Shown here in pieces: positions 4,824 through 53,190 of a stretch of 64,000 bases of DNA. Each line of letters opens with the position of its first letter. Within the stretch, counting starts at the first letter, position 1. The notes under the pieces are model-generated. The model did no database searches, was not told where the DNA came from, and worked only from the letters and a program-made list of their open reading frames with translations. The stretch comes from Labilibacter sediminis. Lineage in GTDB: Bacteria; Bacteroidota; Bacteroidia; Bacteroidales; Marinilabiliaceae. A program made the position numbers and the translations under genes. The stretch covers positions 62,001 to 126,000 of the forward strand of contig NZ_VCHY01000010.1 in NCBI RefSeq assembly GCF_005877885.1, in the 5' to 3' direction.

Positions 4824-7800
4824 TTACTCAGACTTTTTTATGAACTTCCCCACCCCTTTCAAATTACCTTCTGCTGATTTGAGTAACAAAACATATTGTC
4901 CGGGTAGTAATGATTTTACCTCTACAACACTACTCAATATCGGGGATGACATTACCACCTGACCAGCAAGGTTTATAATTTCAAAATAGGTATCCTCATA
5001 CACATCCTTTTTAACATTGATATAATTGCTTGTTGGATTTGGATATATTACCAACTGCTTGGCATCACTCCAAATATCACCCACAGATGTGAATTCTCCA
5101 TCTAATTTAAAGTTGTATAACGGTGATTCCAGAACTCCGGAACTAACATATAATGGAATATTCCATTGCCCATTTTGATCCTGTGTTGGAATGACAATGT
5201 TTCCATTTAAGTTATAATCATTTCCTGACATTAAATTTAAACGTGGCGTACCTGACAGTTCGTTCAAATTAATCACTTCAAACATATTCTCTCCTTCAGG
5301 GAAATCAGGAATTTTGACAGAAAGTTGAATATGAGGCAATCCAATATAGACCGGCGTACCCACTTCAGCTCCTTTATTCTGCTGTCCTGTTATCACCAAT
5401 TCTTTTGTTTGATCTTTTAAGCAAATAAAACCCAATCTGAAATTCTCAATTCTGATTTTATTTGTTCCTTGATTTGTAGCTTCATCGTGGTATGAAAATC
5501 GAATATCATATTCTTCCAGATGAGTCCAATTCTCTTTACCATGAAGATTATCCCAAGTGGTAAACGCCTCTTTAATATTTATGATAACATTTTCAAAATA
5601 AGGATTCTGATTACATGCAACAATTGATTCGAACCACCCCCCAACTTTACCATCTGCAGATACTACTCTTACTGAAACACTTAAGTCTTTATTTAGTGCC
5701 GCCGCTAAATAATCAAATTGCATCAGCGGTGCAGGACGAAGGATCATATCGAGCGCCTCTATGCGCATATAATCATCGTTACCAATATTTTCTGCAGGAT
5801 CAATAAGCAACTGGTCATCCAATAATTCTACCTTATCAGAAAGAACATGATCTTTTACCCACAAGATATCATTCCATGGATCACCCTCTGAATCATCCGC
5901 ATTATAATCAAATAGTTCCTCATATGAAGTCGGGTAACTCACTTGATCTAAATTACTTCCTGCTGGAACGAAGTACCACAAAGAGCCTTCTAATTCAGAA
6001 CCATCAACAAGCATTTCATCAATACGCCAAAAATAAACTTTATCAGAATCTAATTCCCCAGGATCAAACACATTGTTTGTTTGCGTACTTACCAATTTAA
6101 GATTAGAAGGATTCGCTCCCAAATACACCTTATGCTGAACAGCGTTCAAGCCCTCCTTCCACATTAAATCACAATTAGGCATCGCTGTTACACTTTCATT
6201 CGGGGGTACAGGTGTAGAGGCTTTAGTGAGTTTACGACCCGGAACATTGTAGTTCTCTGCATCCCATTCGTATGCACCCATATCCGGTGCCGATTCATTA
6301 TAAAATAGATTCAAGGGCAAACCGGGCAAGCTTTGTTCTCCTTCATTAATAATTACTGACTGCTCTTGTGGTCTGAAATCCAAGTTATATGGATCACGCA
6401 ACACCTGAGTCACATCCATATTTGTTACAAAACCATTCCAATTATTGCCTGACAAGCCAGGAAGAGGATGCTCCAAGACAGTTCTAACTCGATGGCCTGA
6501 CATACGTTCTGTTACATTATTAAATATGCGCGTTCCTTTATTCCCTCCAAATTCAACATCTGCCAAAACAGAGATATCACATCGCTTGCCGTTATCAAAA
6601 AAGGTGTTATTAACTACAGTATGATCATCCCCTTTAATTTGCAATCCTTGCCATAAATTCCAGCCTACATTGTACATATGTGTAGCTAACTCCCCTCCGG
6701 GTTCTCCATCACAACGTATTCCTTTGTTTTCTGTATCATGAAACCAGTTGTAACGAACAGTATCTTTTTTTTGTGATCCGCTCTGTATCTGAACGCAACT
6801 AGCATCCGAACGATGCGAAGCCAGATTATGAAAATGGTTGTATTCAGCTACCAACATTCCCTGAGGACTTTTAAAATACTTCAGCCCGTTACCACGTTGG
6901 GATGCATACATTGTATTTCTGCAGAAATATGCGCCCATACAGTTTGTCATCCGAACCACATGATCGTGCCGTCCATTGTGAAAAAGACAATTCTCAACAA
7001 CAGGTGTCGTATGCTCCTGTCCATCTAGAATGATAGCCGAACCGTCGAAATACCTAAACTCACAATTATAAATAACTACATCTGCTGGAGCAAATAACGT
7101 AGGTGAATATGATCTTGAGAGCCTTAGTGCATCAGGCGCATTGGATAAAGACCAATTCACATAACTAGGATAATTAAGTGTACAATCCTTTATTTTTAAA
7201 TTATATGTATCTGATGCTGACAATGTTGTTCCAAGAAAGGAAAAACCCTTAATTTCCAGCCCGGAACAATTACTTAATGAAAAAAACTTTTGCTTTGTTT
7301 TTGCAATAAAAACAACATTATTCGGATTATCGATACCATTTAAAGGGATATAATACAAATAATTACCCTCCGCATCATAATACCATTCTCCAGGGAAATC
7401 TAAGCAGTTTTTATGAGAAGTAATAAAAAAGTATTGTTTATTACCTCCAACAGATGTTTCCGCAAAATTGACGGAAGTTGATTTAATTTTCTGGTTATCG
7501 ATATCAGTATTCACAATACGTTCCCCAACAACTTCATATCCCATTTTTAACACAATTACTCCTCCTGTAAAATCATGCTCTATTACACGCTGTGAATCAC
7601 CATTGTACCAAAAAGAAGAATCGACAAACACATTGGTATTGTTTTTTTTATCCTGAATAGCCAGTGCAGTCCAAACAGCATCATAATCCCAACATGTTCC
7701 TTTTTCCGGATCACGAGCCGTATAATCAAAGTTAAACGGATATGAAAAATTATCTGATACATTAGGCCATCGGGCCATCGTTTGCATCACCAGATTTTCA

Positions 7801-9431: not shown

Positions 9432-9679
9432 TATTTAATTTTTTAAGGATATTTCTTCAAAATTAAATAATGAATTATTATACGAGATTTTATAAACCTA
9501 TTAGGGTAACAAATTATACATCTGTAGTCCCAAATAGAATTAGCACCCATAATTTACCGCACAACAATGCATTATATGTATCTATAAAAAACACTAATTC
9601 TTTTTTTGCCTTGAGGATTGGGTGGTTTTATTACCTGAATATGACTGTAATCGGATAGGAACATTTAAAGATATATACA

Positions 9680-12487
9680 CTATATACCCTTATCCATTTT
9701 TTCCATTACTTTCTTCTGATACTCTGAAGGTGTTAGTCCTGTGTGCTTTTTGAATATTCTATAAAAAGAAGATTTGGAATTAAAACCTGCATCAAAACCT
9801 ATTGACAAAAGAGTATAATGAGCCATGTCTTTGTTATTCAACATCATTTTCACATGCTCAACTCTATAGTTATTTACATAATCATAGAAGTTTTGATTGA
9901 GAAGATCATTAAATATAGAAGAAAGAGTATTGGTTGAAACATTCAGTTTATCGGCCAAATCCTTTAGGGAGAGTTCCGGATTTAAATATTCTTTTTCCTC
10001 TTCCATTATTCTCTTCAGTTCCTCTATTCTTTGTTTATCTGCCAGACTTAATTTATCCTCCTCAACTTTCTTTTTCCTCTTTCTAACAACAACTTTTCCA
10101 GAAACATAATAGCCTATTAGCACGAATAAAACGATAAGAATAGGCAATACTATCCGAAGGATCTTACCTCCAAAAGAAGGATTAACATTTAATGTAGTAC
10201 TAACAACTTGTGTAGACCAAATCCCATCATTATTCGCAGCCTTAAAATCTATAAGGTATTCACCTGAACCATGAACAGGAATACTTACCCATGGTGAATG
10301 TTCATTAACCAGAGTCCACTCTTTTTCACCTCTAAATTTCCACGCGACTTTATTTTGGTGAGCGGAAGTAAATGACATTGGAGCAACATATAGTTCAAAT
10401 TTCTTATGGTTTTTACCAATTGTTATTTCATAGTTCTCCCCGGATAGTCTTATCAAATTATTAGATTCTTCTATTCCATCTAACCTATACTTCTTAATAA
10501 CTACACCTGGCGCATTGTGATTAACGACCATAGTGGAAGGGTTAAAATAAATCCATCCTTGAGTATTGGCAAAAAATATGATCCCATTCTCAGATTTCAG
10601 TCCTGCTTTTTGAATAAACTGCCCGGATAGAAGTCCATTTTCATATGAGTAATGAGTAAGCTTAACTTCCGGGAGCTCAATACGAGTTAGGCCTTTAAGG
10701 TGACTAATCCAACTTACTTTCTCATTTTCAAAAACAATGGCACAAACTTCATTTTCTTTTAAACCATTTTTTGTTGAAATAGTAACAAACTCACCTTTTA
10801 CTTTATCAAAGAAAGCAACTCCGCTATCTGTAGAACCCAACCAAATAGTTCCTCCCGGAGTTTCGTTAATGCTAGTCAGTTTAGTAAAACCTTTTTTTGT
10901 AGCTTCGTCATTACCAATAGTATAATTAAGCCATTTATTTGTTGATGGATTATACTTGAATATACCTAAATTTCGAGCACATATCCATAACTTACCTTCG
11001 TTGTCATAATGTACGTTAGTAAATAACCTATTGTTTAACTTAGGATTCTTAGCATCATAATGTTTAGCCACCTCTATTACGTCATAAGGTCGCTTATTAT
11101 ATTTAACATTAAATAACCCTTGATTAGACGCTAACCAAATCTCATTACTTTTCCCATTACATAGGTCATTGATTTCTATTTCTTCGAAATCTTTTAAGTG
11201 AACATGAAAATATTTCTCGAATCTGAGATCTATCCAGATCAATCCTTCACTTTTTGAGACTGCCCATAGAGATCTTTCGCCAGCCCTTTTTAGTATGGAT
11301 ATATCGTTGGGCAGATCGAAAGACAATTCTGTTGTTTTTCTTAATCCATTATCCAGTATGGGCGAGATTCTTGCTTTATACAACTTTGAGTTATCTTCCC
11401 CTCCTTCAATCCAATAAAAAACATTACTAACAACTATTCCTAACTGAGCTCCTTGCGATAAGGATAAGTAATCCCCTCCTCCTTTTATAGGTCGGTTATA
11501 AAAAAATTGTTTAGTCCAATCCAGTTTATAAAGTCCGTTCAATGTACCCACAAAAAGCACTCCTGAACGATCTGTATGTAAGGCAAATATATTTTTACTC
11601 CCTAAATAGCCATGCTGTTCAAGCTTACTCTCCACATGAATTAACTTACCCGTTTTCTGTTCATAATAAGCTAATTCCTTAAAGGCATCATTCAACCACA
11701 GTCGATTATTTTTTCCAAAAGTAAAATCTATAATCTCATTTTTAACCGACAGTACATGTTTAAATGAATCGCTATCCAATATATATTGATATATATTATT
11801 CCCCACGCTAGCCCATAACTCACCAGATGGGCCTCTAGAAATTTCACCAGACTTAAATTGTCTTACTTTTCTTTGAAGTTTAAACTTATAATTTTTAACA
11901 ATACTATCATTTTTATTTATCTCTGATATTACATCATCATCATGTAAAACCCATGTGGATTGCAATTGCTTATCATACCAAACATTAAACACCTTTCGAA
12001 AATCCCCAATGGATAACAACTCTCCATCATTAATAACCTTAACAAGCCCTTTGGTTAGTCCTATCCATAAGTGAGACTCATCATCCAGTTCCATTGAAAT
12101 CGCTCTGCCATATTGATATTTAGTTTCTCCTTTAAGAGGATATACCCTTTGTATTGTTTTGTTTTGTAGATTATATTTCATTACATCCCCATTGTGTAAT
12201 GAAAACCAAAGGGTATCCTCACGAATCAAAAGAGAAATGACTTGATGTTTTCTCCAATTAATAGAATCACTAACTGCAGGGAAAACCTTTTCCATTTCAA
12301 AACCATCATACCTATATAATCCTTCTCGCGTTCCAATCCACATAAAACCATCGTCATCCTGGTCTAAGGCAGTCACCTTCATCTCATAATCTAAAGGAAA
12401 AGACACTTTCTCAAAAAAAGGTGTTGCTCCTTTAAGTATGAAGATATATAGTATAAATATTGTTGTAGTAAATATTCTTTTTTTCAT
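9680..12487 (-). CDS. Membrane-bound propeller-sensor AraC-family regulator (no kinase)
   Basis: One-component regulator with the sensor of an HTCS but no signalling cassette. A signal peptide is followed by a two-component-regulator-type beta-propeller with repeats such as DGFMWIGTREGLYRYDG. A Y_Y_Y-type domain (about 650-770), one transmembrane helix (ILRIVLPILIVLFVLIGYYV, about 770-795) and a charged, possibly coiled linker lead into a C-terminal AraC helix-turn-helix (LSLKDLADKLNVS and IGFDAGFNSKSSFYRIFKKH). I see no histidine-kinase H-box and no receiver domain. An ATG 12 bases upstream (12499) is possible, but the start at 12487 gives a standard lysine-led signal peptide. It is divergent from the GH141/sulfatase run at 12943 and upstream of the beta-helix gene at 4824, its likely targets. 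Confidence 0.88.
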   Translation of the reverse strand: MKKRIFTTTIFILYIFILKGATPFFEKVSFPLDYEMKVTALDQDDDGFMWIGTREGLYRYDGFEMEKVFPAVSDSINWRKHQVISLLIREDTLWFSLHNGDVMKYNLQNKTIQRVYPLKGETKYQYGRAISMELDDESHLWIGLTKGLVKVINDGELLSIGDFRKVFNVWYDKQLQSTWVLHDDDVISEINKNDSIVKNYKFKLQRKVRQFKSGEISRGPSGELWASVGNNIYQYILDSDSFKHVLSVKNEIIDFTFGKNNRLWLNDAFKELAYYEQKTGKLIHVESKLEQHGYLGSKNIFALHTDRSGVLFVGTLNGLYKLDWTKQFFYNRPIKGGGDYLSLSQGAQLGIVVSNVFYWIEGGEDNSKLYKARISPILDNGLRKTTELSFDLPNDISILKRAGERSLWAVSKSEGLIWIDLRFEKYFHVHLKDFEEIEINDLCNGKSNEIWLASNQGLFNVKYNKRPYDVIEVAKHYDAKNPKLNNRLFTNVHYDNEGKLWICARNLGIFKYNPSTNKWLNYTIGNDEATKKGFTKLTSINETPGGTIWLGSTDSGVAFFDKVKGEFVTISTKNGLKENEVCAIVFENEKVSWISHLKGLTRIELPEVKLTHYSYENGLLSGQFIQKAGLKSENGIIFFANTQGWIYFNPSTMVVNHNAPGVVIKKYRLDGIEESNNLIRLSGENYEITIGKNHKKFELYVAPMSFTSAHQNKVAWKFRGEKEWTLVNEHSPWVSIPVHGSGEYLIDFKAANNDGIWSTQVVSTTLNVNPSFGGKILRIVLPILIVLFVLIGYYVSGKVVVRKRKKKVEEDKLSLADKQRIEELKRIMEEEKEYLNPELSLKDLADKLNVSTNTLSSIFNDLLNQNFYDYVNNYRVEHVKMMLNNKDMAHYTLLSIGFDAGFNSKSSFYRIFKKHTGLTPSEYQKKVMEKMDKGI

Positions 12488-12499
12488 GCTGCAAAACAA

Positions 12500-12942: not shown

Positions 12943-15576
12943 ATGATGAGAATAAGAAAAACCTTAATACTAACAGTACTTATTATTTACCCATTTCTAT
13001 TGTGGTCGAAAGAGATTCATATTAAATCCGGTGGCAATGATCACAACGTTGGAACTTATGAGAATCCTTTGAAGACAATAAAAGGAGCTCGAGATATAAT
13101 TAGAAAGTTAAGCATGAAAGAAAGACATCAGAATATAGATGTAATATTACATGATGGAAAATATTTCATGGATGAAACTGTTGTCTTTTCCATAGAGGAT
13201 AGTGCTCCTGATGGATATATATATAAATATAAGGCTGCAAAAGGAGCTACCCCTATTTTAACTTCAGGAGTTACCATAACAGGGTGGAAAAAAATAAAAA
13301 GCAAACCCAAAGGACTACCTGAGATTTCAAAAGAGCATATATGGGTAGCTGATATCCCCCACAACACTGGAAAATTTTATGTGCTTTATGATGGGAATAA
13401 AAGATTGACAAGAGCTCGTAACAAAGGCTTTAATATGCCTGAAGTGAAATTTAAAAAATTTGCCAGTCGTAATGTTGCACAAAATAAAGATAGGGCGCTA
13501 TTGAAAAAACTTCCTTTCCCTCAAGAGGTGATCAAAAAATGGGAGAACCTTAATGATATTGAAGCATTCTTTTGTCCGGTTCCATGGTGTGTTAACTATT
13601 CACCTATTGAAAGAGTTGATGAAGAAAACCAGATAGCCTGGCTTAAATACGAGGCTAATTCTCCTCCATTCACCACACCCAAAAACTACAATCCGGCCTA
13701 CATTGAAAATGTAATTGATTTTCTAGACGAGCCGGGAGAATGGGTTGTAAACACCAAAACAAAAAAAATATACTACTGGCCAATAAATGGAACACCGGGA
13801 AATGACATTATTGCTCCTTCTCTTATAGAATATATAAAAGTAGAAGGTGATATTAATTATAATGAGGCAGTTGACATTCCTGTTCGAAATATAAATTTTA
13901 AAGGCCTAACTTTTAAGCATGGAAACAGATATCAATGGTGGGATGATCATAAAGGATGGGGTATTCAACACGATTGGGATAAATTTGATACCCCCAATGC
14001 TCTCATACGCTTTCGAGGTGCAGCGAATTGTACGATTGAAGAGTGCCACTTTACTGCTTCAGGATGTTCGGCAATTAGATTAGACTTACATGCGCAAAAT
14101 ATCAACATCAAAAATAATCTAATCAACCATGTAGGACACATGGGAATATTACTGTGTGGATATGGCCCAGGTACTAAAGATGTTAACAAAAATAACATAA
14201 TCACAAATAATATAATCGACCACTGTGGTGAAGTTATCTGGCATGGACATGCGATTTTTGTTTGGCAGAGTGGGGAGAACTACATTGCCAATAACTTAAT
14301 TCAAAATTGCCCGAGAAAAGCCATAGGCATTTGTGGTGTACGAGGTCCCATATTTAAAGAAGGGCCTTCAGTAGATTGGGATGAAGCAAGCAAGACCTTA
14401 CGGTGGAACGAAATAGATTCTTCCTTACAAAACAGCCACAATATAACTCAAGAAGCCATATTACCATATTTACATGCCCGAAATAATTTGGTAGAATATA
14501 ATGAGGTATATCGATGCAGAACTAAAATTGGGGATGGTGCAGCTCTGAATGTTTCCGGCGCCGGAACAGGAAACATTGTTCGCTCAAACATATTAATTGA
14601 TGTGGTTGGAAATGGAATGAGAACAGATGACTGGCAAAGAGGAACTGAGTTTTCGAACAATATAATTTGTAGTGGAGGAATTGTACACAAGGGACACAAC
14701 CACATTACTAACAATATTTTTCACAACACAAACATTAGATTCACCACTTATCCAGAGCAGCAACCTAATCCTGGCTCAAAGGTAAACAATAACATCATGT
14801 TTTTTACGCGTAAAAATATATCTCCTTATACAGAGAGAAAAACCAAAGACATTTATACACCTGATGATTGCATACTAAAGAACAATATTTACTATTCTAC
14901 AGAGGATCCAGAGAAAATAAGTGATTTTATCAATCTCAATCAATCTGAAAAAGGATGGGAAGAGGGTTCGCGTGTAGTTAACCCAATGTTTGCAAAGCCA
15001 ATTCCAAACTTCCGAAAAGTTAAAGCTCAGGACTTCAAGCTGTCACCTAATTCTCCGGCCTATAATACCGGTTTCTCGAAAATTGAATATGATAAATTCG
15101 GTTTAAGAAAAGACTTCCCTCTTAAATTGCAAAAAAAGATATTTCCCATAGCAAGTGGGGAATGGATTTCAAAAGATGCTGACATATCCTTTTCATCAAC
15201 GCAAAATGCGATACCCGATTATGCTCAGGTTTTATTGCATAGCCATGAAGAGCCCGATATTGAGTATGCCATTCGAAGCCGGAAGGAACACATGCCTTAT
15301 ATCATCCTTGATTTAAAACAATCGAAACAAATAAATTCCTTAAGGGTGATTGGTTCGGGTAAAGATGGAGACGACAATAACAAAACACTAACCATTTATT
15401 TATCTTACGATAAGACAAATTGGACAGAGATATGGAAAAATGACCCCTATAATACTAAGTCGGGACGAATGTGGGATATTTTTCCAGATAGTCAGAAACA
15501 TGCCAGATATGTAAAGATTGGCTTAAAAGAAAAAGGTATATTAACTTTGAAAAACATTAATATTTATGGAAAATAA
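12943..15576 (+). CDS. GH141-like beta-helix glycosidase with C-terminal discoidin-like domain
   Basis: An 877-aa secreted protein with a Sec signal peptide (about 1-22; ATGs at 12943 and 12946 are both possible). The parallel beta-helix domain starts GTYENPLKTIKGARDII and contains conserved blocks GHMGILLCGYGPGTKDVNKN, FVWQSGENYI, NVSGAGTGNIVR and RTDDWQRGTEF. It is clearly homologous to the 780-aa lipoprotein at 54289. The last about 130 residues (YIILDLKQSKQINSLRVIG and ARYVKIGL) resemble an F5/8-type C (CBM32-like) sugar-binding domain absent from that paralogue. GH141 contains alpha-L-fucosidases and occurs in fucoidan loci, so a fucose-directed exo-enzyme is likely, but the GH141 assignment rests on my recall of the family. 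It overlaps the next sulfatase gene by 11 bases. Confidence 0.75.
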   Translation: MMRIRKTLILTVLIIYPFLLWSKEIHIKSGGNDHNVGTYENPLKTIKGARDIIRKLSMKERHQNIDVILHDGKYFMDETVVFSIEDSAPDGYIYKYKAAKGATPILTSGVTITGWKKIKSKPKGLPEISKEHIWVADIPHNTGKFYVLYDGNKRLTRARNKGFNMPEVKFKKFASRNVAQNKDRALLKKLPFPQEVIKKWENLNDIEAFFCPVPWCVNYSPIERVDEENQIAWLKYEANSPPFTTPKNYNPAYIENVIDFLDEPGEWVVNTKTKKIYYWPINGTPGNDIIAPSLIEYIKVEGDINYNEAVDIPVRNINFKGLTFKHGNRYQWWDDHKGWGIQHDWDKFDTPNALIRFRGAANCTIEECHFTASGCSAIRLDLHAQNINIKNNLINHVGHMGILLCGYGPGTKDVNKNNIITNNIIDHCGEVIWHGHAIFVWQSGENYIANNLIQNCPRKAIGICGVRGPIFKEGPSVDWDEASKTLRWNEIDSSLQNSHNITQEAILPYLHARNNLVEYNEVYRCRTKIGDGAALNVSGAGTGNIVRSNILIDVVGNGMRTDDWQRGTEFSNNIICSGGIVHKGHNHITNNIFHNTNIRFTTYPEQQPNPGSKVNNNIMFFTRKNISPYTERKTKDIYTPDDCILKNNIYYSTEDPEKISDFINLNQSEKGWEEGSRVVNPMFAKPIPNFRKVKAQDFKLSPNSPAYNTGFSKIEYDKFGLRKDFPLKLQKKIFPIASGEWISKDADISFSSTQNAIPDYAQVLLHSHEEPDIEYAIRSRKEHMPYIILDLKQSKQINSLRVIGSGKDGDDNNKTLTIYLSYDKTNWTEIWKNDPYNTKSGRMWDIFPDSQKHARYVKIGLKEKGILTLKNINIYGK

Positions 15577-30045: not shown

Positions 30046-30218
30046 ATCACTATTTATTTTGAACTTCAAAATTGAGATTTTTGTCCTTTTAATAACAAAT
30101 AGATATTCCCAAAGAATAAGACTCATTTCACAAACACCCACTGAACATCATGTTTCAACTACAATAAAAGACTGGTTTTCAACCTTATTAAACATGCATA
30201 TTAGATTTAAATTGGATT

Positions 30219-38800: not shown

Positions 38801-40052
38801 CGCCTTCAATTCCTAATTTTTCATTAAAATCAGGAAACACTTTTACTTTTGGTCCGTCAATATGAATTTTATTCATACCTCCATTTATGGTTCCCAGCCA
38901 AACATTTCCATTTTGATCACTTGAAATCTGGTTAACAAAACGATCCGACAAACCTGTGTTATTTGCTGTAGCAGCTTTAATGGTATAAAATGGTTTCCTT
39001 TTCAAACTTGCCTTATACAAGCCACCTCTATAGGTACCTATCCATAAAACATCTGTATTGTCTATATAACATTTGCTAAAATTTCCTTTATTAAATTTAT
39101 CGATGGATTTAAATGTGGGATAAAACTGACCTAATTCCCCATCTGCGCTTATTTCTTGTATCCCATTTTCCCAACTAAAAAGACGAGTTGAACCATCATT
39201 GGATGAAATGATTTGATTTATTCTTTCCCCGCTGAGGCCAGGTAAGAGCTTCAGTCTAGTATCAACTGTATTGTAAATTAGATCATCTTCTGTTATAATC
39301 ACTTTTGAAGCTCCTATTGCATAACCTACTAACAAATTATCATTGGAATCTAATTCCATACAAGTAATAAAACCATGACTCCCTGTATGCGTAATTTTTA
39401 TATCACCATCTTTTTCCGTAATTCTGCAGAGCTTATTTCGGTAGGCCACCCACATATTACCTTTAGAATCTTGCTCTAATAACCTTACAATAAAATCACG
39501 ATACTGATTACGCTTAACATTCTCTATTATGGGGTAATAAATTTTTTCAACTTCAAATGATTTTTCATTTAATACTATTAACCCAAGATTCTCTTTTGTC
39601 CCTATCCAAATATGGTTAGGTTTATTTTTATCGGCATATACGGTTCTATAGCTTTGTAATCCTAATTCTTTAAGTGGATATCTATGAAATGTTTTTGTTT
39701 GCGGATCAAATCTATTTAAAACATTTCTATTTAATATCCAAAGGTGACCGTTTACAGATTCACTAATTTTAATAACTTCATTATTTGAAACAGTAGTACT
39801 ATCATATGGATCATTCTCAAATATTTCAAATTCATACCCATCATATCGATATAATCCATTTGGTGTTGCAAACCACATAAAGCCATCATTGTCCTGATGT
39901 ATATCATATACCGTATTTTGGGCAAACCCATCTTTCATTCCTACATTTTGAAAAAGATATTTTGATATATCTAACTCCACCTGACAAAACAAGGATTGAT
40001 GAAAAGAAGAAATTAGTAGAATAGCACTAACAATTATGGATATATATTTCAT
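35823..40052 (-). CDS. Hybrid two-component system sensor/regulator (HTCS)
   Basis: A 1409-aa single-chain sensor and transcription factor, the usual inducer of susCD-type operons. It starts with a signal peptide (about 1-23), then a two-part beta-propeller (Reg_prop repeats such as DGFMWFATPNGLYRYDG, to about 690). A Y_Y_Y domain (about 700-790) and one transmembrane helix (about 800-825) follow. The histidine kinase has H-box ISHEIKTPL with His876 and ATP-binding GSGLGLAF. The receiver domain carries DVMMPEMDGYEM with phospho-acceptor Asp1206, and an AraC helix-turn-helix ends the protein (about 1300-1409, VTEIAFNVGFTNVSYFGKCFK). All catalytic residues appear intact. The ligand is presumably an oligosaccharide released by this locus. 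Confidence 0.97.
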   Translation of the reverse strand: MKYISIIVSAILLISSFHQSLFCQVELDISKYLFQNVGMKDGFAQNTVYDIHQDNDGFMWFATPNGLYRYDGYEFEIFENDPYDSTTVSNNEVIKISESVNGHLWILNRNVLNRFDPQTKTFHRYPLKELGLQSYRTVYADKNKPNHIWIGTKENLGLIVLNEKSFEVEKIYYPIIENVKRNQYRDFIVRLLEQDSKGNMWVAYRNKLCRITEKDGDIKITHTGSHGFITCMELDSNDNLLVGYAIGASKVIITEDDLIYNTVDTRLKLLPGLSGERINQIISSNDGSTRLFSWENGIQEISADGELGQFYPTFKSIDKFNKGNFSKCYIDNTDVLWIGTYRGGLYKASLKRKPFYTIKAATANNTGLSDRFVNQISSDQNGNVWLGTINGGMNKIHIDGPKVKVFPDFNEKLGIEGDARCWGTLFDSKNNLWISVLGSGLIKVQYDKSGNRKKVSYFNSKDYEGFNIDLTYMFYEDQTGVVWMGNHNEHGIGYIDESGAEEKFIQLEHDKLNNLSVSAIYRDNKGGLWIGALNSGVFKVSLDENLKVLEVINIVHSNSNVEFLRSNPVFGFKEDSEGVIWMATFGAGLIKLMTNQISGELEFKYYQKKDGLPSAAVYSILEDDNKFLWLSTDEGISKFDPVKEVFQNFNFYDGLQNNNFRKWSAWKSKDGIMYFGGTNGFTYFDPLEVKSRESTSTVQITKMNVRHKKFAFQSFSYHASDSIDYKNNIIVLEPNQNTLALEFAALQFDNPHKSSYQYKLEGVDDRWIETSADKRYASYSFLKPGSYTFKVKSSNGDGVWNNEYAALNIYIQPYWYQTWWAILMYFVFIGLVVFIGLRMQYRRHKLRTQLEVEKHERTSVLELNKAKLSFFTNISHEIKTPLTIIAGLVDKNLSQIALPYEVGRDFGVIMKNTKRMLRLVSQLLDFRKVEAGHLPTNFVKSDLIAFLTELSESFEVFTAQRNIKFKFRAKQADLDVVFDPDKMEKIITNLVSNAFKYTNDGGEISLIVDSLENDLSHSKIPDEFRQASSDYIVLKISDNGKGIPVDQIDNIFDQFYQVEYHSSYKEVDKGSGLGLAFTNMLIKLQKGFVFVESELGAGSSFYVILPKYQQGFNEEEIKSDVHIRNVLNDVKEEFAPVAEEKIINVFKPEDHIQFHDKEILIVEDNVEIRAFLKDFLAPGFKVYEAENGVEGLKLAEERIPDLIISDVMMPEMDGYEMCSKIKENEKTNHIPIILLTANAQTEHRIEGIKAGADSYIPKPFNLEHLKIRIQKLLELRSKLKKKYIDHAGEQPLEEIDVNLEDKEFLKNLEGVIETNLSNSEYTVKDIEKDMGYSRMQLYRKLKSISDLSAVEFMRSYRLRRAVDMMHSTSLRVTEIAFNVGFTNVSYFGKCFKAKYGKIPSEFVKDVRSL

Positions 40053-42799: not shown

Positions 42800-44389
42800 T
42801 TACTTAATATTAGAAATTTTAATAGTATAAATATGATTACATGGTAAGTCGTTAATCCCTATATTCGATAAATCGATATGAATATTATTCCCTTCTATCG
42901 TATAGTTTAATAATTTAGCAACACCAAGCATTTCGACTGTTCCTTCTTTAGACAGTTCTACGTTGCGTATTGTTAACTGATTGTCTTTAGGCCACCCTGG
43001 TGTTAATGCATATAAATCCTGACCTTTTTTCGTAAACCACGCTTCTTTGTATGCATTACCCGGTTTAGGATCTATTGTCATCTCAAAAATAGGGAAACCT
43101 GCATGAAAATCATGTTTTGTAAACACCGGTCTTTTTCCTTCACTCCACTGAGCTGACTCCTTATATGCTCTGGTTCCATAAATAGCTTCGCCATTAACGT
43201 TTAACCAGTTTCCTATTTCAACAAGTCTTTGTTGCATTATTACCGGAATTGTTCCATCAGGGTTTGGTCCAATATTTAGCAATAGATTTCCTCCTCTACT
43301 AACTAAGTCGGCCAACATAAAGAGTAACTCCTTCTCTGTTCTATAGTCATCTATATTTTCAATACGATTAACACCAAATGACATACCAATGCCTCTATTT
43401 TCTTCCCATGGCTTATCAATTCCTTCAAAACCTGAACCATACTCAGTAGTGTAATAACCTCCATGTTTACCTCTACCTTTACCCCATCTGTCATTAATAA
43501 CAACTTCATCTTTATTTGGAGCATTATTATATAACCATGCTAACAAAGGCTTGGTTTCCCACAACTCATCATTCATCCACCAGTCTCCATCAGAAAAAAG
43601 TAAAGATGGCTCATACTTATTAACTATTTCTTTAAATTGCGGATACATTACTTTATGCACGTAATTTGATAATCCTTGTTTAGCTTCTTTCAATTCTTTC
43701 TTTTTTACAGGAGCTGCCATATCAGCTTTCTCATTGAAATTAACTGCCATATTACCAGAGCTCATTAATTTCTGCTGTTCTTTGGTCCACAAAGGATTAA
43801 ACCAATCCCAAATAGAATAATACAATCCCATTTTTAAACCTTCGTTTCTTACAGCTACCGTAAGATCACCAACTAAGTCCCTCTTAGGTCCAGACTCAAC
43901 GCTATTCCAAGCCATACCATAACTTTCTGAGGCTTCCTTATTTGGCCATAAACAATAACCATCATGATGCTTTGATGTTAACACCACATATTTGGCCCCT
44001 GATCTTTTAAAGATATCAGCCCATTCTTCCGGGTTAAATAGTTCACAGGAAAATCCTTCTCTAAAATCGGAATATTTAAAGTCCTCTCCGTAGGTACTAT
44101 TATGAAACTTGGTAATCGCATGATGTCTTTCCTTTCTTTTTTCACTAGAAGTATTTGGATCTTCTAATAAAGCATTCCAATACCATTCGGCGTAGGTTCC
44201 TTTATTGGTATACCCTGGCACTGAGTACAAACCCCAGTGAATAAAAATCCCAAATTTGGCGTCAGGAAACCATTGAGGACAATCTCTTGAATCAAGAGAT
44301 TCCCAATTTGACTCATATTTTCTTTCCTGAGCAACTACAATAACAGAAAATAAAATCCCTATAAATAATAATACATATCGATTCTTCAT
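42800..44389 (-). CDS. GH29 alpha-L-fucosidase-like enzyme
   Basis: A 529-aa secreted GH29 enzyme. After a signal peptide (about 1-21) come AKFGIFIHWGLYSVPGY (44-60), TSKHHDGYCLWPN (138-150), YYSIWDWFNP, and the nucleophile motif LLFSDGDWW with Asp267 as likely nucleophile. ADLVSRGGNLLLNIGPNPDG and a C-terminal beta-sandwich finish it. The SDGDWW form is close to classical alpha-L-fucosidases and differs from the FFDMGE form in the 24233 paralogue, so the three GH29 copies probably differ in linkage preference. First gene of a pair with the sulfatase at 41151. Confidence 0.94.
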   Translation of the reverse strand: MKNRYVLLFIGILFSVIVVAQERKYESNWESLDSRDCPQWFPDAKFGIFIHWGLYSVPGYTNKGTYAEWYWNALLEDPNTSSEKRKERHHAITKFHNSTYGEDFKYSDFREGFSCELFNPEEWADIFKRSGAKYVVLTSKHHDGYCLWPNKEASESYGMAWNSVESGPKRDLVGDLTVAVRNEGLKMGLYYSIWDWFNPLWTKEQQKLMSSGNMAVNFNEKADMAAPVKKKELKEAKQGLSNYVHKVMYPQFKEIVNKYEPSLLFSDGDWWMNDELWETKPLLAWLYNNAPNKDEVVINDRWGKGRGKHGGYYTTEYGSGFEGIDKPWEENRGIGMSFGVNRIENIDDYRTEKELLFMLADLVSRGGNLLLNIGPNPDGTIPVIMQQRLVEIGNWLNVNGEAIYGTRAYKESAQWSEGKRPVFTKHDFHAGFPIFEMTIDPKPGNAYKEAWFTKKGQDLYALTPGWPKDNQLTIRNVELSKEGTVEMLGVAKLLNYTIEGNNIHIDLSNIGINDLPCNHIYTIKISNIK

Positions 44390-46230: not shown

Positions 46231-46236
46231 TATTAT

Positions 46237-46321: not shown

Positions 46322-46531
46322 ATGAAAATATTAGACAGCACAATCCTCCCTAACATAGATCCTTCCAATATTGAGTATGTCAATATATTTTGTTTAAATA
46401 GTGGTAATTGTATTTATAAAGATCAACTAGGATTAAATTATACTATACCTAAAGAATTGAAATCGGGTCCATATATGCTGGTTATTAATTATTCTAATGG
46501 CAAATTTGAATCTTTAAAGATTAATATTTAG
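46322..46531 (+). pseudogene. Orphan fragment resembling a T9SS C-terminal domain
   Basis: A 69-codon frame from an ATG at 46322. It reads like the last two thirds of a T9SS type-A sorting domain: VNIFCLNSGNCIYKDQL, then TIPKELKSGPYMLVINYSNG and a short basic-hydrophobic end. There is no signal peptide, and the frame is closed by a stop at 46307-46309. It is therefore most likely the tail of a lost exported protein rather than a working gene. A translated small protein cannot be excluded. Confidence 0.5.
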
Positions 46532-47082
46532 TATAATTGAGATAACAATGCATACCTATTCACAGATATATGTAAACTTTCTTAACCCTCAGACATTCAT
46601 GCATACAAGGTCAACATACATCAAATAAACTCTCTCTTCATCTGCAATAATTAATTCCTCTACCAATAATATCAATAGGATATTTTAAATATTTCACACC
46701 AATGTTGTCCTAATTATTTTCCACTCAAGCCGTGTAGGCTATTACTTTTTTCTACAGTCAAAAGAGTAAGCAAAAAGTCCGCCGGCTGCACCCATCTCAC
46801 TCAAAAAACTAGGATTCATGACTCAAATTGTTTTAAACTCACACTTTTTCGTACCTCAAAGTGCTTAGACAGAAAAACAATTTTTAACCGTCACTTTAAC
46901 CCTGTTTTTTGGCTCACTGGCTGAGGCAGGTTCGCAACAAGACTTTTCGAGAATTGAATAAAAACGTTTTGGACGCTATTAATTTCACACCTATAATTAC
47001 TTCCGTTTTTCCAAAAGCTTAAATAAAAAAACCCGCTTCTCAATTAAAAAAAGCAGGTTAACTAACTAAAAAACTAAAGGTA
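46532..47082. other. Intergenic region with a possible decayed repeat
   Basis: About 550 bases without an intact gene. The part at about 46720-46970 is richer in G+C than its surroundings. One frame reads ITFFYSQKSKQKVRRLHPSHSKN from 46741 before a stop; from memory, similar translated fragments recur in intergenic DNA of many Bacteroidota. It may be a dispersed repeat or relic. A terminator for the gene at 47083 lies at 47023-47060. Confidence 0.4.
47023..47060 (-). terminator. Terminator of the beta-helix gene at 47083
   Basis: On the minus strand AACCTGCTT pairs with AAGCGGGTT (one U-G pair) around an A/T-rich loop, followed by TTTTTTTA. Confidence 0.75.
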
Positions 47083-50079
47083 CTATTGAACTACAATTTT
47101 ATTAACATGAGTTGTGTTATCATCCAAAACACTCATTACCATATAAAATCCAGGATTTAAACCGCTTGTCTGAAAGTGTTTATTCCCACAAATATCCTTC
47201 AACACAACATTCCCACTTAATGAATACACAGTAATCATTTTCACATTCCTTTCAATGGATAAATAAATCTTCTCGCCCTGTGAAGCAGGTTGTGGAAATA
47301 GTGTAATATCAGATTCCTTTTTTACATTAAAAATAGATGTTGAAGTATTCGTAATTGAAGAAGAAAAGTCATCAACGTATACATTGCCACTGAGGTTACC
47401 AAGCCATAATTCTATATGTGTTTTATAATTTTGCTGGAACGGTTGATTATTCCAGGTGTAAGTTATCTCTTGCCATCCCGAATTTACATCAAAATGCCCT
47501 GCGACAATCTGCGCATTAACAACAAAGTTAGTTGTTCCATCTGCATTAAGATCTTTGACTACAAGTTTAATTCTATCCAGATCTCCATTATCCTGAGCTT
47601 GATCCACTTTAATCCAAAAAGAAACGGTAATGGATACTGAACTTGCCGTAAAATCAGGAGAAAAGTTGAATTCCTGATCGCTATATATCACCGCTTTATT
47701 TTGGAGGGTTTTGGTGTCAATACCATCCCAATTCTCATTTGGAGCTAGTATGGTGTATGATTTGGTCCCTTCATGCGCCTCAGCTGTTACAATTTGTCCA
47801 TTGATCCCGGGACCTGTTACACTCCAATAACTTGCATCATCATCATACTCGAAGGTTGGTCTGTTAATAAAACCACTAGACTTATCATTCGATGGTGGAT
47901 TTCCTTCATCATCAGGCCATGTCCATGGATATAATTCTGGTAAAAAATCTATTCCGGGAATCCATTTATTACCACCTAATTCATATGCTCCAACATCAGG
48001 ATTTCCTACTTGTGGATTAAACGAATCGTTAGTAATATTTACATCCACCTCTGTACTTCCAAACAGTTTTGTTGATAAGATTTCAAAACCTGCATTAATG
48101 ATATTTGATTGATTACTTTTAGGATTAAAATCATAATTGGCCCTGTTACCCACAACGTCATTTACATCATATTGTATGGCCCCTGCTCCATTATTAGCTC
48201 CTGAAAAATAGTGATAAACAGGTTTTTCTATACTTAGATTAGTTACATCATAATCTACACTTCCTGTAGATGCTGTTGGCACATCATCTTTCCATTGACT
48301 TACATTATTTGTTACACCAATACCTGGAATATCCCCAACATTATCATAAACACTCGTTCTATGTCCACTGATGAAATCTGTCCAGTTATTTCGTGTATAG
48401 GAATTATTATTTGTAGATGTTGTTGATCCACTTCCACATGACTCATCAATGATTAATATATCAGTCTTCAAACAATTAAAAACGGTATTATTATATATTT
48501 GCTGATGATCACCTTTAATCATCATGCCGATACCACCCGTATTATCAGCAGGATCTCCAATATTCCATATTACATTATGATGTGCTAAACCATATTCCCC
48601 GGCAGTACAAGGGGTTTTTGCAGGTGCATCGAATCTAAATCCATATTTACCTGTATCATGAATCCAATTATAGGCAGTTTCTGATCCAGCCACAGAATTG
48701 GTTGTATGCTGTACCACTGAGCCATCACTCTGCGCATAACCAGTATCTGACATATCGTTAAATTTAACTACTGACTTTGTTCCTAAATTTAATGTTGCAG
48801 ATGCCCCGGTGGTATGCAAGACGTTATTTGTAAATTTAAAACCGCTCCCCTTTGCATATACTGTTAGTCCAAGACTTTGAGTACTCGCGCACGACCAATC
48901 GATATGGTGGATATAGTTATTGTTAAAAATATGGTTATCACCTTCACAGATAAAAGCCTCTCCATCTGTATATTCAAAAACACAGCCATCAAACTTACAA
49001 TATGAGCTCCCATAAGAAGCACTTAACGATCCTGTTGATAAACTCTGATCGATACTGGTAACCAAAGGTGCTGAACTCACCTTTAACATACGTTTTGAAT
49101 AATTTGGGTAACTAAAAATGCAATTTAAAACTTCTGAGTAATCACATGCTTGCATGCGAATCGTGGTTCCAAAAAACTTTAATCCTTTAATTGTAACCTG
49201 GGTCGAATTACGAATATCAATGGCATAAGATTGTACCTTTCCTCTTATTACAGCGGATGGATCATTTAAATCAGAACCATCACCAACTTTACTCCAGGCG
49301 TATACATATTTCTTACCATTTTCTTCCTGAAAAAACCATTCATCTTCAGTATCTAACAAATGAAGCTTCCCTTCAATAAAATAGTAGCGATGCTTTGTTC
49401 TTAAATCTCCATTAGGCACTGTTGCATATGCAAATGAGTTTCCAGAAATATCACTCGTTATGCCTCTTGCCCAAGTTCTGAAAGAACCAAAATTTGCAAC
49501 GATCATACCTCCTGCAATATTAGCATTAAGAGAAGGTGGAAATTCATAACCATGGTTGGAAGAATTAACAATATTATTAACGGTTCCATTTGGAGCGTTA
49601 TTTTCGTTTACAGCCCAATGTTCATGTTTATATATTTCGTTATTTTCAAATGTGGTATTTGGCCATCTGGCCATAATTTGCTCTTCATCATTTATAAATA
49701 ATTGCCACATATCTTTAGGCACCTCTGCCTTGTAAACATTGTTCATTCCTGCTACTACATTCCATGTAGAAGTAATTATTTCCGTACCATCCAATACAAC
49801 GTTTGCATTCTGATAGGGCAATATATCTAAATTACTATAGCCATCAATAAGCACTTCTTCTCGATATACCCCCTCCATTAAGTAACATATACCTCCTTGT
49901 GCCTTATCAATCTCCTGAATGGCTTTGGCTATAGTCTTATAAGGCATTTGTGGAGACAAACCATTGTTATTTGTATCATCTCCTAATATGCCTGGCGATA
50001 CAAAGAAGGTCTGTTGAGCATTTATTGACGAAGCAAGTAATATAAAAAGTAATATTCCAAGAAAAGCAATTCGTTTCAT
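47083..50079 (-). CDS. T9SS-exported beta-helix protein with CBM-like module (ARWPN family)
   Basis: A 998-aa protein; the start at 50079 gives a direct signal peptide, whereas an ATG at 50115 would add 12 residues. Order: signal peptide (1-22), beta-helix (about 24-720), CBM-like jelly roll (about 740-905) and a T9SS type-A tail (last about 80 residues, LFPQPASQGEKIYLS). Family signatures are MPYKTIAKAIQEI, MWQLFINDEEQIMARWPN (ARWPN at 137-141), WIHDTGKYGFRFD and IKGDHQQIYNN. The fibronectin-like YYWRVDE segment found in its relatives is replaced by the CBM-like module. Probably an extracellular polysaccharide-active enzyme of unassigned activity. Divergent from the paralogue at 50611. Confidence 0.85.
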   Translation of the reverse strand: MKRIAFLGILLFILLASSINAQQTFFVSPGILGDDTNNNGLSPQMPYKTIAKAIQEIDKAQGGICYLMEGVYREEVLIDGYSNLDILPYQNANVVLDGTEIITSTWNVVAGMNNVYKAEVPKDMWQLFINDEEQIMARWPNTTFENNEIYKHEHWAVNENNAPNGTVNNIVNSSNHGYEFPPSLNANIAGGMIVANFGSFRTWARGITSDISGNSFAYATVPNGDLRTKHRYYFIEGKLHLLDTEDEWFFQEENGKKYVYAWSKVGDGSDLNDPSAVIRGKVQSYAIDIRNSTQVTIKGLKFFGTTIRMQACDYSEVLNCIFSYPNYSKRMLKVSSAPLVTSIDQSLSTGSLSASYGSSYCKFDGCVFEYTDGEAFICEGDNHIFNNNYIHHIDWSCASTQSLGLTVYAKGSGFKFTNNVLHTTGASATLNLGTKSVVKFNDMSDTGYAQSDGSVVQHTTNSVAGSETAYNWIHDTGKYGFRFDAPAKTPCTAGEYGLAHHNVIWNIGDPADNTGGIGMMIKGDHQQIYNNTVFNCLKTDILIIDESCGSGSTTSTNNNSYTRNNWTDFISGHRTSVYDNVGDIPGIGVTNNVSQWKDDVPTASTGSVDYDVTNLSIEKPVYHYFSGANNGAGAIQYDVNDVVGNRANYDFNPKSNQSNIINAGFEILSTKLFGSTEVDVNITNDSFNPQVGNPDVGAYELGGNKWIPGIDFLPELYPWTWPDDEGNPPSNDKSSGFINRPTFEYDDDASYWSVTGPGINGQIVTAEAHEGTKSYTILAPNENWDGIDTKTLQNKAVIYSDQEFNFSPDFTASSVSITVSFWIKVDQAQDNGDLDRIKLVVKDLNADGTTNFVVNAQIVAGHFDVNSGWQEITYTWNNQPFQQNYKTHIELWLGNLSGNVYVDDFSSSITNTSTSIFNVKKESDITLFPQPASQGEKIYLSIERNVKMITVYSLSGNVVLKDICGNKHFQTSGLNPGFYMVMSVLDDNTTHVNKIVVQ

Positions 50080-50610
50080 GTGTTTAATATTTTCTTTGTT
50101 ACAAATGAATCTCACAAGAAAATCTCATCATTCCCCATTGAGGTGTATTGGAATAATGATATTTTAATGATGGGTTCAACCTAACATGTTGTACAAACAA
50201 TTTTAATGCTTGCTAAGGTATTGGCATAAATACATATTGAATAGAAAATATATCACAAAATATAATATAAAAATAGCAGCCTCAACCAATAGAATATATA
50301 CGACATAACTACAACTATACTTCCAGGTAAAGACTTCAGAAGTTTATTTGATTACAGACAATAACTAAATGAAATTTACAATAACAGAAATAATCCTTTC
50401 TTCGCCCCTTGTACGTATTGTAAGAGCTGCAAATCCCATTAAACATTACAAATCCCAATTAATACATTTATCAACCAGTAGAGTACCTCTAATAATATGA
50501 CATATAATTCAGCAATGATGTAATATTTGGTTGATTTTTTGTGAAATCAATTTTAAAACCTTTAGTAAATTGTAAATAGTTTCACAGAACAAAAACAGAA
50601 ACAATATTTA
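50080..50610. other. Divergent intergenic region between two beta-helix genes
   Basis: About 530 AT-rich bases that should hold both promoters. I could not place a full TTTG / TAnnTTTG pair on either strand. No gene seen. Confidence 0.35.
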
Positions 50611-53190
50611 ATGATGAAGAGAATACTATTTTTAATACTTGTTATTTGCATTGGCTTTAATTTGAGGGCAAAAGAATATTTTGTATCTCCATCAGGCAAG
50701 GACTCCAACAAGGGATCCCAAGAATCTCCATTTAGAACTATTAATACTGCAATTAAATTTCTTAAAGCTGGTGACACTTGCTTTCTGAGAGAAGGAACCT
50801 ATAATGAGGAGGTAGATATTTCGAATTTAAGGGGATCAAAAAATAATCCAATAATAATATCAGCGTACAATAATGAAAAGGTAATTTTTGATGGAAGCGA
50901 TCCCATTACAGGAAAATGGGAAAAGCATTCAGAGAATATTTACAAACTAAAAATAAAAGAACCTATTTGGCAATTATTCCAGGGTGATGAAATGAAAATT
51001 TTAGCGCGATGGCCCAATGCTTCCTTCACGGATGGATCCATATGGGATATGAAAAGTACATGGCGTCATCAGGGAAAGGCCAGTGTATTTGGTACACTTG
51101 TAGATGAAAGGCCTGTAGCTGCAGATTATATGCACAACGAAGATGAAGGAGCATCTACTTTCGAAGTAAAAGAGGGGAAGAACCTGGAATCTCTCGCTGA
51201 TACTAAGGTAGATTTTACCGGAGCTACTGCTGTATTAAATATAGGATCATGGTTATCATGGGCTCAACCTGTAATTGAACATGCGGCAGGTAGTAATACC
51301 TTTAAATACAGTAAAAATTTTAGTCGCCCTGGCAAAAAACCAGAACCTAATGGACCTTCAATCTTACGCAGAAGTTCATTTTTTGAAGCGAAAAAAAACC
51401 AAGGCCACTACTACATGGTAGGTCTGATGGCACTAGACGCTCCTAATGAGTGGTTTTATGATGACGCAAAAAAAACAGTATATGTATATATTGAAAATGG
51501 TAAACAGCCTAATGAAATTTCCTTCAAAGGAAAGCGTCGCACCTTCAACATCAAAGGTAAAAACGCATCTTTTGTTACAATAAGTGGCATCGATTTTTTC
51601 GCAACTACTTTTCAATTTACCGATGCACAAAATGTAACTGTAGAGAATGGAGACTTTAAATATCCATCTTACCATAAATTGGCTCTAAAAGATTACCGCG
51701 AACCTGAAGTAACAGGTTTTATAATGAGTAACAAACTATACAGAGAGCAAAAAACAGAATCAAATAATGTTATTTTCAATTGTAAATTTGAATATGCAGA
51801 TGGTCCGGGTTTTAAAATTAAAGGTATTGGCGACCGGGTTGAAAATTGTTATTTTCATGATATCGACTGGACATGCCTGGGCTCAGGCTCTTCCGGAACC
51901 CTGGATGCCTCCAATACGGAAAAATTTGTTTTTAGAAGTAATACAGTGCATACCGGAGGGAACAGTGAAGGTGTACGACTCGGGCATGCTAACCTGGCTG
52001 AGTATAACCATATTTATAATTTAAGCCTGTTGCAACATGATGGTTCAGGTATCAATGTAGGTACCAATGCTATTGATCAAACCATTGTGAGATATAATTG
52101 GGTGCACGATATGAAAAAGTCAGGTATCCGTTTCGATTCCAGAGGTTTTATGACTGTAAATGTCGAATGGGGTGAACATGGAACCATCGATCATAATGTA
52201 GTATGGAAAACGGGTAGTATTAAAGCCAAAGGAAATCATCATACCATTACCAATAACATTGCTTTCGACTCCAATAAAGGAATGTATGACATTGGGGTTC
52301 CAAGAGTTTTAGTGATGGGCAGTAACAACAGCCAATCCGTCATCCACAATAATATTGCAGGATCAATTGGTGGCCATTTTAGTCAGAAAAAAGGATTTGC
52401 CTGCCCGGGTGATTTCCAGAATAACAAGGAAGGTGATATTGGTTTATGGCTTAAAGATCCTAATAATTGGGACTTCAGACCCCAGAAAAACATAGGAGAT
52501 ATTGGAGCCTACAAGTTTACTGATCAAAATTACTGGATCCCTGGTTGCAAAATGGAAACAGCAAGTGTTCCTATTCCATTTAACGGTGCGGTAAATCTGC
52601 CAAGTAACCTTGATTTGATGTGGAAGGAAGCATTAGTTGCAAGCGAATACCATATTTACTTTGGCAACGACTCTTTAGCCGTATTAACTGCGCACACATC
52701 ATCCAATGAGTTTAAGGGTAGCACAAAGGCAACAACCTTTACACCTAAAAGCTTTAATCCCAACTTAAAATACTTTTGGAGAGTTGATGTTGTAAATAGC
52801 TCTGATATTATTAAGGGAGAACTTTGGAGTTTAGGAGGAAAAACTACAGTTTTAAGTAGAACTAATAAACTTCCCCTAGTGAAAAAAATTAAATATCAAG
52901 AAGTCACCTCTCTTCCTGAATCAATAACAAAAGGCGGATTTTCTGATGATACATTAGCCAAACTTCACAAACTATATAATTCATTTTGGAGTGGGTACGA
53001 TAATAACAAGTGGTTGAGTCAGATACAGAAAGAACTTAAAAAAGAAGGCTTGTCAGAAGACAAACGTAAACACCTTGAAGTTTTTTATAATACTGTCATG
53101 AAGGAAAGCCTGGATTATATATATAATAATAGCAGTAACTTCCTTAATATAGAGGAGAAGGAAGCTTTAGCAAAGATTGTTTCAAAATAA
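50611..53190 (+). CDS. Secreted beta-helix protein with helical C-terminal extension (ARWPN family)
   Basis: An 859-aa protein (ATGs at 50611 and 50614). It has a signal peptide (1-20) and then a beta-helix (about 22-650) opening GSQESPFRTINTAIKFLKAG. Signatures are IWQLFQGDEMKILARWPN (ARWPN at 132-136), WVHDMKKSGIRFDS and KGNHHTITNN. A fibronectin-like segment (LMWKEALVASEYHIYFG, YFWRVDV) follows. There is no T9SS tail. Instead the last about 85 residues are charged and helical (LSEDKRKHLEVFYNTVMKES), a feature not seen in the paralogues. It is more similar to the 27346 protein than to the 47083 one. Followed by a strong terminator. Confidence 0.84.
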   Translation: MMKRILFLILVICIGFNLRAKEYFVSPSGKDSNKGSQESPFRTINTAIKFLKAGDTCFLREGTYNEEVDISNLRGSKNNPIIISAYNNEKVIFDGSDPITGKWEKHSENIYKLKIKEPIWQLFQGDEMKILARWPNASFTDGSIWDMKSTWRHQGKASVFGTLVDERPVAADYMHNEDEGASTFEVKEGKNLESLADTKVDFTGATAVLNIGSWLSWAQPVIEHAAGSNTFKYSKNFSRPGKKPEPNGPSILRRSSFFEAKKNQGHYYMVGLMALDAPNEWFYDDAKKTVYVYIENGKQPNEISFKGKRRTFNIKGKNASFVTISGIDFFATTFQFTDAQNVTVENGDFKYPSYHKLALKDYREPEVTGFIMSNKLYREQKTESNNVIFNCKFEYADGPGFKIKGIGDRVENCYFHDIDWTCLGSGSSGTLDASNTEKFVFRSNTVHTGGNSEGVRLGHANLAEYNHIYNLSLLQHDGSGINVGTNAIDQTIVRYNWVHDMKKSGIRFDSRGFMTVNVEWGEHGTIDHNVVWKTGSIKAKGNHHTITNNIAFDSNKGMYDIGVPRVLVMGSNNSQSVIHNNIAGSIGGHFSQKKGFACPGDFQNNKEGDIGLWLKDPNNWDFRPQKNIGDIGAYKFTDQNYWIPGCKMETASVPIPFNGAVNLPSNLDLMWKEALVASEYHIYFGNDSLAVLTAHTSSNEFKGSTKATTFTPKSFNPNLKYFWRVDVVNSSDIIKGELWSLGGKTTVLSRTNKLPLVKKIKYQEVTSLPESITKGGFSDDTLAKLHKLYNSFWSGYDNNKWLSQIQKELKKEGLSEDKRKHLEVFYNTVMKESLDYIYNNSSNFLNIEEKEALAKIVSK

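Follow-up and report, generated by a model that had tools for sequence, protein, structure and literature searches.

We consider it likely that a family of divergent β-helix proteins in Labilibacter sediminis consists of GH141-like hydrolases, probably endo-acting, that are directed at sulfated fucose polymers. Four full members are encoded in the 64,000-nucleotide stretch of DNA analysed here, which we refer to as the window and for which the initial annotation had proposed a new class of enzyme. Fucan-active β-helix enzymes for a sulfated polymer are still the best reading, in which the substrate and the endo action would follow from resemblance and gene context. A new active site is not borne out: GH141 has the same predicted fold, the same kind of inserted domain and an Asp pair in register, and is thus to a large extent a known CAZy family that shares the catalytic residues. 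Judged by sequence and predicted fold, the enzyme type appears known in outline, as a GH141-like hydrolase with its Asp pair, and the novelty that remains seems to lie in a separate, deep branch next to GH141.

The four full proteins were correctly delimited and, as the initial annotation had stated, differ in their accessory parts. The largest (4824–9431, reverse strand, 1535 residues) runs from an N-terminal CBM-like part through the β-helix core (window ~6177–8138) and a fibronectin-like segment to a T9SS tail; the CBM-like part includes a CBM_4_9 module (residues 276–386) above the curated Pfam cut-off. The 931-residue open reading frame at 27346–30141 (reverse strand), with a probable true start at residue 33 (MKYLCIF, judged by eye), comprises an N-terminal module, the core (~27682–29460) and a fibronectin-like segment. 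This module has no Pfam match at E 0.1. In the 1010-residue frame at 47083–50115 (reverse strand; probable true start at residue 13, by eye), the core (~47836–50016) is followed by a C-terminal module and a T9SS tail. Finally, the 859-residue protein at 50611–53190 (forward strand), of which the core (~50668–52545) was modelled, continues into a fibronectin-like segment and a C-terminal tail that looks helical by eye. The T9SS tails of the 4824 and 47083 proteins exceed the curated cut-off, and a search for such a tail in the 27346 and 50611 proteins found none. The annotated sequence motifs are present as well: QLF/QLW..ARWPN, HD..G.R.D and KG(D/N) occur in 4/4 full proteins, and the fibronectin-like (Y/F)WR(V/I)D in the 4824, 27346 and 50611 proteins, being absent from the 47083 protein. 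The four cores, each about 600 residues long, have 85 invariant alignment columns in common and score E 6e-275 or better against the joint profile built from themselves.

The predicted fold is that of GH141. AlphaFold2 models the 50611 core with confidence (pLDDT 88.8, pTM 0.91), and the best four Foldseek matches of this model are chains of 5mqp (E 5.4e-19 to 6.1e-18), the RG-II α-L-fucosidase BT_1002 of Bacteroides thetaiotaomicron, with a TM-score of 0.50 to 0.57 and 14-16% identity in the structural alignment; GH120, GH136, GH110 and lyases follow. The model, Foldseek and the GH141_M insertion domain all indicate a right-handed parallel β-helix with an inserted β-sandwich domain, the layout that the available text of PMC10154630 describes for 5mqp. 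GH141_M is matched at E 0.01 by 28/51 members of a larger profile set and by 6/9 of the organism's own members, one of which (C2:44930) exceeds the curated cut-off; the two family members matched in the window stay below it.

Sequence searches lead to the same group. With the 51-member profile, the PDB entry 9rx2 (‘Parallel beta-helix repeat protein’) is found at E 3.7e-40, GH120 (3vst) at E 4.6e-28 over the first hundred residues and BT_1002 at E 4.3e-26; the single 50611 sequence matches 5mqp weakly in phmmer (E 3.6e-4). We found no paper for the code 9rx2 in the open-licence literature, and the entry is absent from the best 50 Foldseek rows of the 50611 model. The match to the GH120 xylosidase XylC (3vst) is confined to its first ~100 residues (E 3e-9 with 50611), while the rest hardly aligns; at the position that corresponds to Asp509, where the profile alignment is weak, XylC has an Asp that we take to be its nucleophile D382.

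The two Asp residues of GH141 are in register with those of the family. In profile–profile comparison, the family matches the GH141-type neighbour at 12943 and two of its kin with 99.9% probability (E 3.3e-32) over an alignment that spans both Asp. Against a BT_1002-like set (E 5.9e-29) the local alignment ends before the two Asp, and the match there consequently rests on the multiple alignment, in which the Asp pair coincides with Asp residues of 10/10 9rx2-like and 8/8 BT_1002-like proteins. Asp477 (codon 52039–52041, forward strand) and Asp509 (the D of G.RFD, codon 52135–52137, forward strand) of the 50611 protein fall on chain positions 528 and 569 of 5mqp, as counted by hand, which at an offset of 5 correspond to D523 and D564; both are reported to be critical in BT_1002 in the available text of PMC10154630. 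From these alignments, the GH141 catalytic Asp pair appears to reside in the HD..G.R.D motif and in the DG that precedes it.

Conservation was assessed in 66 cores from loci L001-L077 (at least 150 bits and 450 model positions; duplicates, shorter and weaker ones dropped), extended by nine cores from Bacteroidia genomes to a set of 75. Asp276, Glu280, Trp281, Asp477 and Asp509 (50611 numbering) are among the residues identical in 66/66 cores, and the Asp pair is kept in 75/75. In contrast, Arg507 (codon 52129–52131, forward strand) and Lys540 of KG..H..NN (codon 52228–52230, forward strand) are specific for one clade. This marine or Arg clade of 60 cores (nine own, 28 other bacterial and 23 archaeal) has Arg507 in 60/60 and Lys540 in 58/60, whereas the side clade has Tyr in 15/15 and Lys in 0/15. 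His499 is His in 70/75 cores. Among the His, Asp, Arg and Lys residues put forward initially as an active site, only Asp509 is hence invariant, and the equally invariant Asp477 had not been named.

The motifs that seemed new have counterparts in GH141-type proteins and are accordingly GH141 motifs in another spelling. ARWPN, found in 73/75 family cores and in 0/10 9rx2-like proteins, aligns with RAR or RAK in most GH141-type proteins; BT_1002 has QLW.NG..A.RAR where the family has WQLF...ARWPN, and both have GEW at the end of the insertion. KG..H..NN aligns with K(G/D)..(H/Q/T)..NN-like letters of 9rx2-like proteins, 10/10 of which in our sample share DG, R.D and the K of KG.NH..NN in register with the family. 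Unlike the family, the eight close relatives of BT_1002 that were aligned have no KG..H..NN, and BT_1002 differs from the Arg clade by a Tyr two residues before the second Asp and by a longer loop preceding it.

The genome (6.36 Mb, 372 contigs) holds nine intact members and one fragment according to the four-member profile (E 5.7e-39 or better). Contig C2, to which the window belongs, carries seven of the intact members as well as the fragment, and contig C144 carries the other two; the five intact members outside the four-core profile match it at E 9.7e-87 to 2.4e-211. Six further rows follow at E 2.4e-5 to 9.3e-4, two of which belong to a 9rx2-like gene (C144:50804); with the 51-member profile, the GH141-type genes of the genome score E 1e-30 to 1e-48. 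The copy at 61286–62278 (reverse strand) is decayed, as initially annotated: it covers model positions 22-200 of 644, passes directly into a T9SS-type tail and has an in-frame stop codon upstream. Because it stops at position 200, it lacks the part with both catalytic Asp. The tail at 63517–64000 (reverse strand) was also rightly assigned to the family and is the C-terminus of an intact member of 864 residues (from the first start codon) that continues to contig position 128111. Moreover, the 51-member profile finds two more distant relatives (C2:26231-28675, E 6e-25; C2:28681-30921, E 4e-25), which were left out of the family trees and residue counts. These adjacent, similar genes upstream of the window, beside a SusC/D-like pair, have (A/S)RWPN and, by eye, Y.D in place of R.D; their sequences suggest a more remote lineage within the same superfamily.

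For most copies, the annotated family expansion is not one by recent duplication. In a quick tree supported by SH-aLRT values only, 3/9 own copies pair with copies of Carboxylicivirga marina, the 4824 protein pairs with a member from a Synechococcus single-cell genome (L049), both on long branches, and one copy stands alone on a long branch. The other four copies pair among themselves, 27346 with C144:100586 and C144:1919 with C2:44270, and these two pairs are far apart. Recent tandem expansion was thus rejected, and most of the nine copies represent old lineages of their own.

The neighbourhood is as rich as the initial annotation had stated. Ten sulfatases are present in the window, together with three GH29 α-L-fucosidase family proteins (24233–26077, forward strand; 42800–44389 and 56718–57857, both reverse strand) and two 9rx2-like genes. 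The first of the latter (12943–15576, forward strand) matches 9rx2 at E 4.4e-126 and GH141_M above the Pfam cut-off; the second (54289–56631, reverse strand) has no GH141_M match itself and groups with the first in the tree. Contigs C2 and C144 make up 4.8% of the genome and hold all 10 family loci of the four-member profile search, 9/17 of the GH29 matches and 33/150 of the scored sulfatases. The genome encodes at least 150 sulfatases (150/160 candidates scored), a very high load for 6.4 Mb. Because of this number, nearby sulfatases are weak evidence when taken alone, and we do not use them as proof of the substrate.

In the window, a hybrid two-component regulator lies beside a SusC/D-like pair (35823–40052), as in polysaccharide utilisation loci, and a second regulator, of propeller/AraC type by eye, likewise lies beside a SusC/D-like pair (9680–12499). 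Close to a family gene on C144 (L123:5604-12644) are genes for an alcohol dehydrogenase (ADH), an SDR protein, an aldehyde dehydrogenase (ALDH), an enolase-superfamily protein, an aldose epimerase and a RhaT-type transporter; this set of genes would suit an oxidative pathway for fucose or rhamnose. Several family genes are also accompanied by small secreted proteins with an N-P-x-F/I-E-like stretch after the signal, seen by eye (window 62592–63440; C2:23482-24339; C144:18419-19222, 83483-84370 and 99064-99852), which are perhaps lone binding modules.

A similar neighbourhood is seen in other bacteria. Within the fetched flanks of 21 Arg-clade bacterial loci, a sulfatase is present at 13/21, GH29 at 9/21 and a 9rx2-like gene at 6/21; any of the three occurs at 14/21 of these loci, at 0/6 Tyr-clade and at 0/23 archaeal loci. 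This contrast is only indicative, since the search profiles were built from the window's own genes plus one C144 gene, the flanks differ in length and the loci are related. In Colwellia (L027, L068) and a gammaproteobacterium (L069), the 9rx2-like frame starts within ~100 bases after the family frame.

Relatives are spread widely. Two short patterns, applied to the GTDB release 220 species genomes, give at least 56 loci from 75 matching stretches, a lower bound because the patterns are narrow. They include Carboxylicivirga marina, Pontiella, Planctomycetes, Neomarinimicrobiota, Colwellia, Lentisphaera and one Synechococcus, and 24 of the loci are titled as marine or other euryarchaea. Among 295 Bacteroidia genomes, with at most four candidates scored per genome, 29 have a match at E 1e-30 and ten, L. 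sediminis included, at 1e-80; the matches weaker than 1e-80 may be other β-helix proteins. The genomes of nine relatives contain 1 to 24 family matches each at E 1e-40. The 24 belong to Pontiella sulfatireligans, described as a fucoidan degrader in the available text of PMC10880615; two of these come from a single frame that is split in half, and a few score weakly.

In the family tree, the 23 archaeal rows group together among the bacterial ones, a placement that points to transfer from bacteria, and they keep the same Arg, Asp pair and Lys as the marine bacterial members. In marine group II archaea, the family core lies at the N-terminus of frames of up to ~3950 residues, often cut by the end of the locus (L048, L050, L055, L056, L058 and L059 among them); no sulfatase was found at E 1e-15 in the 4/4 archaeal genomes checked. 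Together with the 0/23 archaeal loci that have such neighbours, this speaks against sulfated fucose polymers as the substrate. The Tyr-clade members in Bacteroidia (L089, L091, L093-L097) are short, at 576-636 residues, with Tyr for Arg507 and no Lys540; they belong to the side clade, whose likely target is another, perhaps unsulfated, polymer. At the level of whole genomes, we found no tie between Arg507 and sulfatases, as the six Tyr-clade genomes checked encode 32, 94, 3, 10, 0 and 2.

In a quick, unrooted tree of 79 rows, from which 14 archaeal rows were left out and which samples two GH141-type groups (10 9rx2-like and eight BT_1002-like proteins, without the Wf141 proteins), the Arg and Tyr clades occupy one side of a branch each, as do the 9rx2-like and BT_1002-like proteins, and the family as a whole likewise occupies one side, apart from both GH141-type groups. 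For Wenyingzhuangia fucanilytica, the available text of PMC12786026 reports four GH141 proteins as endo-fucanases, two of them in detail. Going by that description, Wf141_1 to Wf141_4, with their signatures DG...N....N and R.D, electropositive groove and fucoidan locus, would resemble the family. R.D is given there as a signature of the endo-fucanase branch, branch 6; its DG and R.D are in register in the family, with R.D in 60/60 marine-clade members. The further branch signature xHQxWxxxD is missing: HQ.W...D occurs in 0/75 family cores and in 0/10 9rx2-like proteins, while QH.W...D is present in 10/10 9rx2-like proteins and in 0/75 family cores. According to the same source, Arg residues stand in the endo-fucanases where BT_1002 and a xylanase have other residues, Tyr included, and are presumed to assist in binding sulfated fucose. 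We read the Arg of R.D as the one meant, and by analogy with that presumption Arg507 is a candidate sulfate contact. Like the BT_1002-like proteins, the Tyr side clade has Tyr two residues before the second Asp; the distribution of Arg and Tyr requires two changes on the 79-row tree, so that the difference would have arisen in both families, given this sample. We put forward, tentatively and short of favouring it, a separate GH family beside GH141 in which the marine-clade Arg, together with the Lys, reads sulfate, in which the Arg/Tyr difference is independent of that in GH141, and which is spread over Bacteroidota, Kiritimatiellota, Planctomycetota, Neomarinimicrobiota, Gammaproteobacteria and marine group II archaea.

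These observations also bear on a simpler account, by which the proteins are ordinary GH141 members with GH141 endo-fucanase activity, possibly of the Wf141_3 type. We regard it as rather doubtful, since the family stays on one side of a branch against both GH141-type groups and lacks the QH.W...D of the 9rx2-like proteins, and since only six of the nine own members match GH141_M, one of them above the cut-off. Still, the shared predicted fold and Asp pair speak for this account, as do the GH141_M matches in 28/51 members, and Wf141_3 is described in the available text of PMC12786026 as a GH141 singleton on a branch of its own with reported activity. A peptide derived from the published Wf141_3 forward primer partially matches a 9rx2-like gene of L023, and no family member in the frames of loci L001-L077. 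CAZy may already list the family under GH141. A hydrolase acting on some other fucose- or xylose-containing sulfated polymer, in exo mode or on short chains, rather than on fucan backbones, would agree with the RG-II fucosidase and the xylanase that GH141 also contains (available text of PMC10154630), and with XylC as the best single-sequence match of 50611, limited to the N-terminal part; surroundings rich in GH29, sulfatases and 9rx2-like genes make it unlikely. Beyond GH141, the marine endo-1,3-fucanase Fun174A of GH174, which acts on sulfated fucan, was compared only by its description in a review, as far as available; it has D119, E120 and E218 as candidate residues, and the family has no invariant neighbouring Asp-Glu pair.

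β-Elimination was the other mechanism considered initially. PL6 and other β-helix lyases carry a conserved Lys/Arg base-acid pair in the groove, and Arg507, Lys540 and a His could serve as base and acid on uronic-acid-containing sulfated polymers, as in PL6 or the fucoidan lyase FdlA. The same broad fold class, weaker matches to PL6 and chondroitinase B in sequence and fold, and the conservation of Arg507 and Lys540 in the marine clade point in this direction. We set this reading aside as very improbable because the two Asp are invariant in 75/75 cores and Arg, Lys and His vary. Further, the alignment with PL6 covers the N-terminal part only, the PDB lyase matches stay within the first hundred profile positions and cover these in part, GH141 is far ahead in Foldseek, and no entry named fucoidan lyase appears in the PDB sequence list or the best 50 Foldseek rows. 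That at least part of the family, for instance the archaeal giants, consists of non-catalytic surface β-helices with a binding role has hardly any probability in our view: several archaeal members do form the N-terminal part of frames of up to ~3950 residues without catabolic neighbours, but the Asp pair is kept in 23/23 archaeal cores.

Taking the family as GH141-like hydrolases for sulfated fucose polymers, we propose that its members would cut the backbone of sulfated fucose-rich polysaccharides from inside, with each lineage adapted to its own linkage or pattern of sulfation. Next to the cleavage site, Arg507 and Lys540 would bind sulfate, the GH29 fucosidases and sulfatases of the same loci would finish the oligosaccharides, and the oxidative deoxysugar catabolic gene set of C144 would use the released sugar.

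Fucoidan resists degradation and acts as a carbon store in the sea, and few families of endo-enzymes are known for it: a 2025 review, in its available text, names four, and GH141 has been added according to that of PMC12786026. Pfam and NCBIfam scans yielded no family of their own for the proteins described here, and in the open-licence literature, which was not searched by the string ARWPN, we recognised no paper that links the motif family to fucoidan. The family thus offers a putative catalytic pair defined by alignment, a candidate sulfate-reading residue and targets for expression, with 24 matches in the reported fucoidan degrader Pontiella and nine intact members in L. sediminis. Its interest lies in the separate branch, its abundance in a reported fucoidan degrader, its occurrence in marine group II archaea, in which an enzyme of this kind would be unexpected, and the split between Arg and Tyr. 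If the tentative reading as a separate family is true, one residue would mark the enzymes for sulfated as opposed to unsulfated fucose or pentose polymers across both families.
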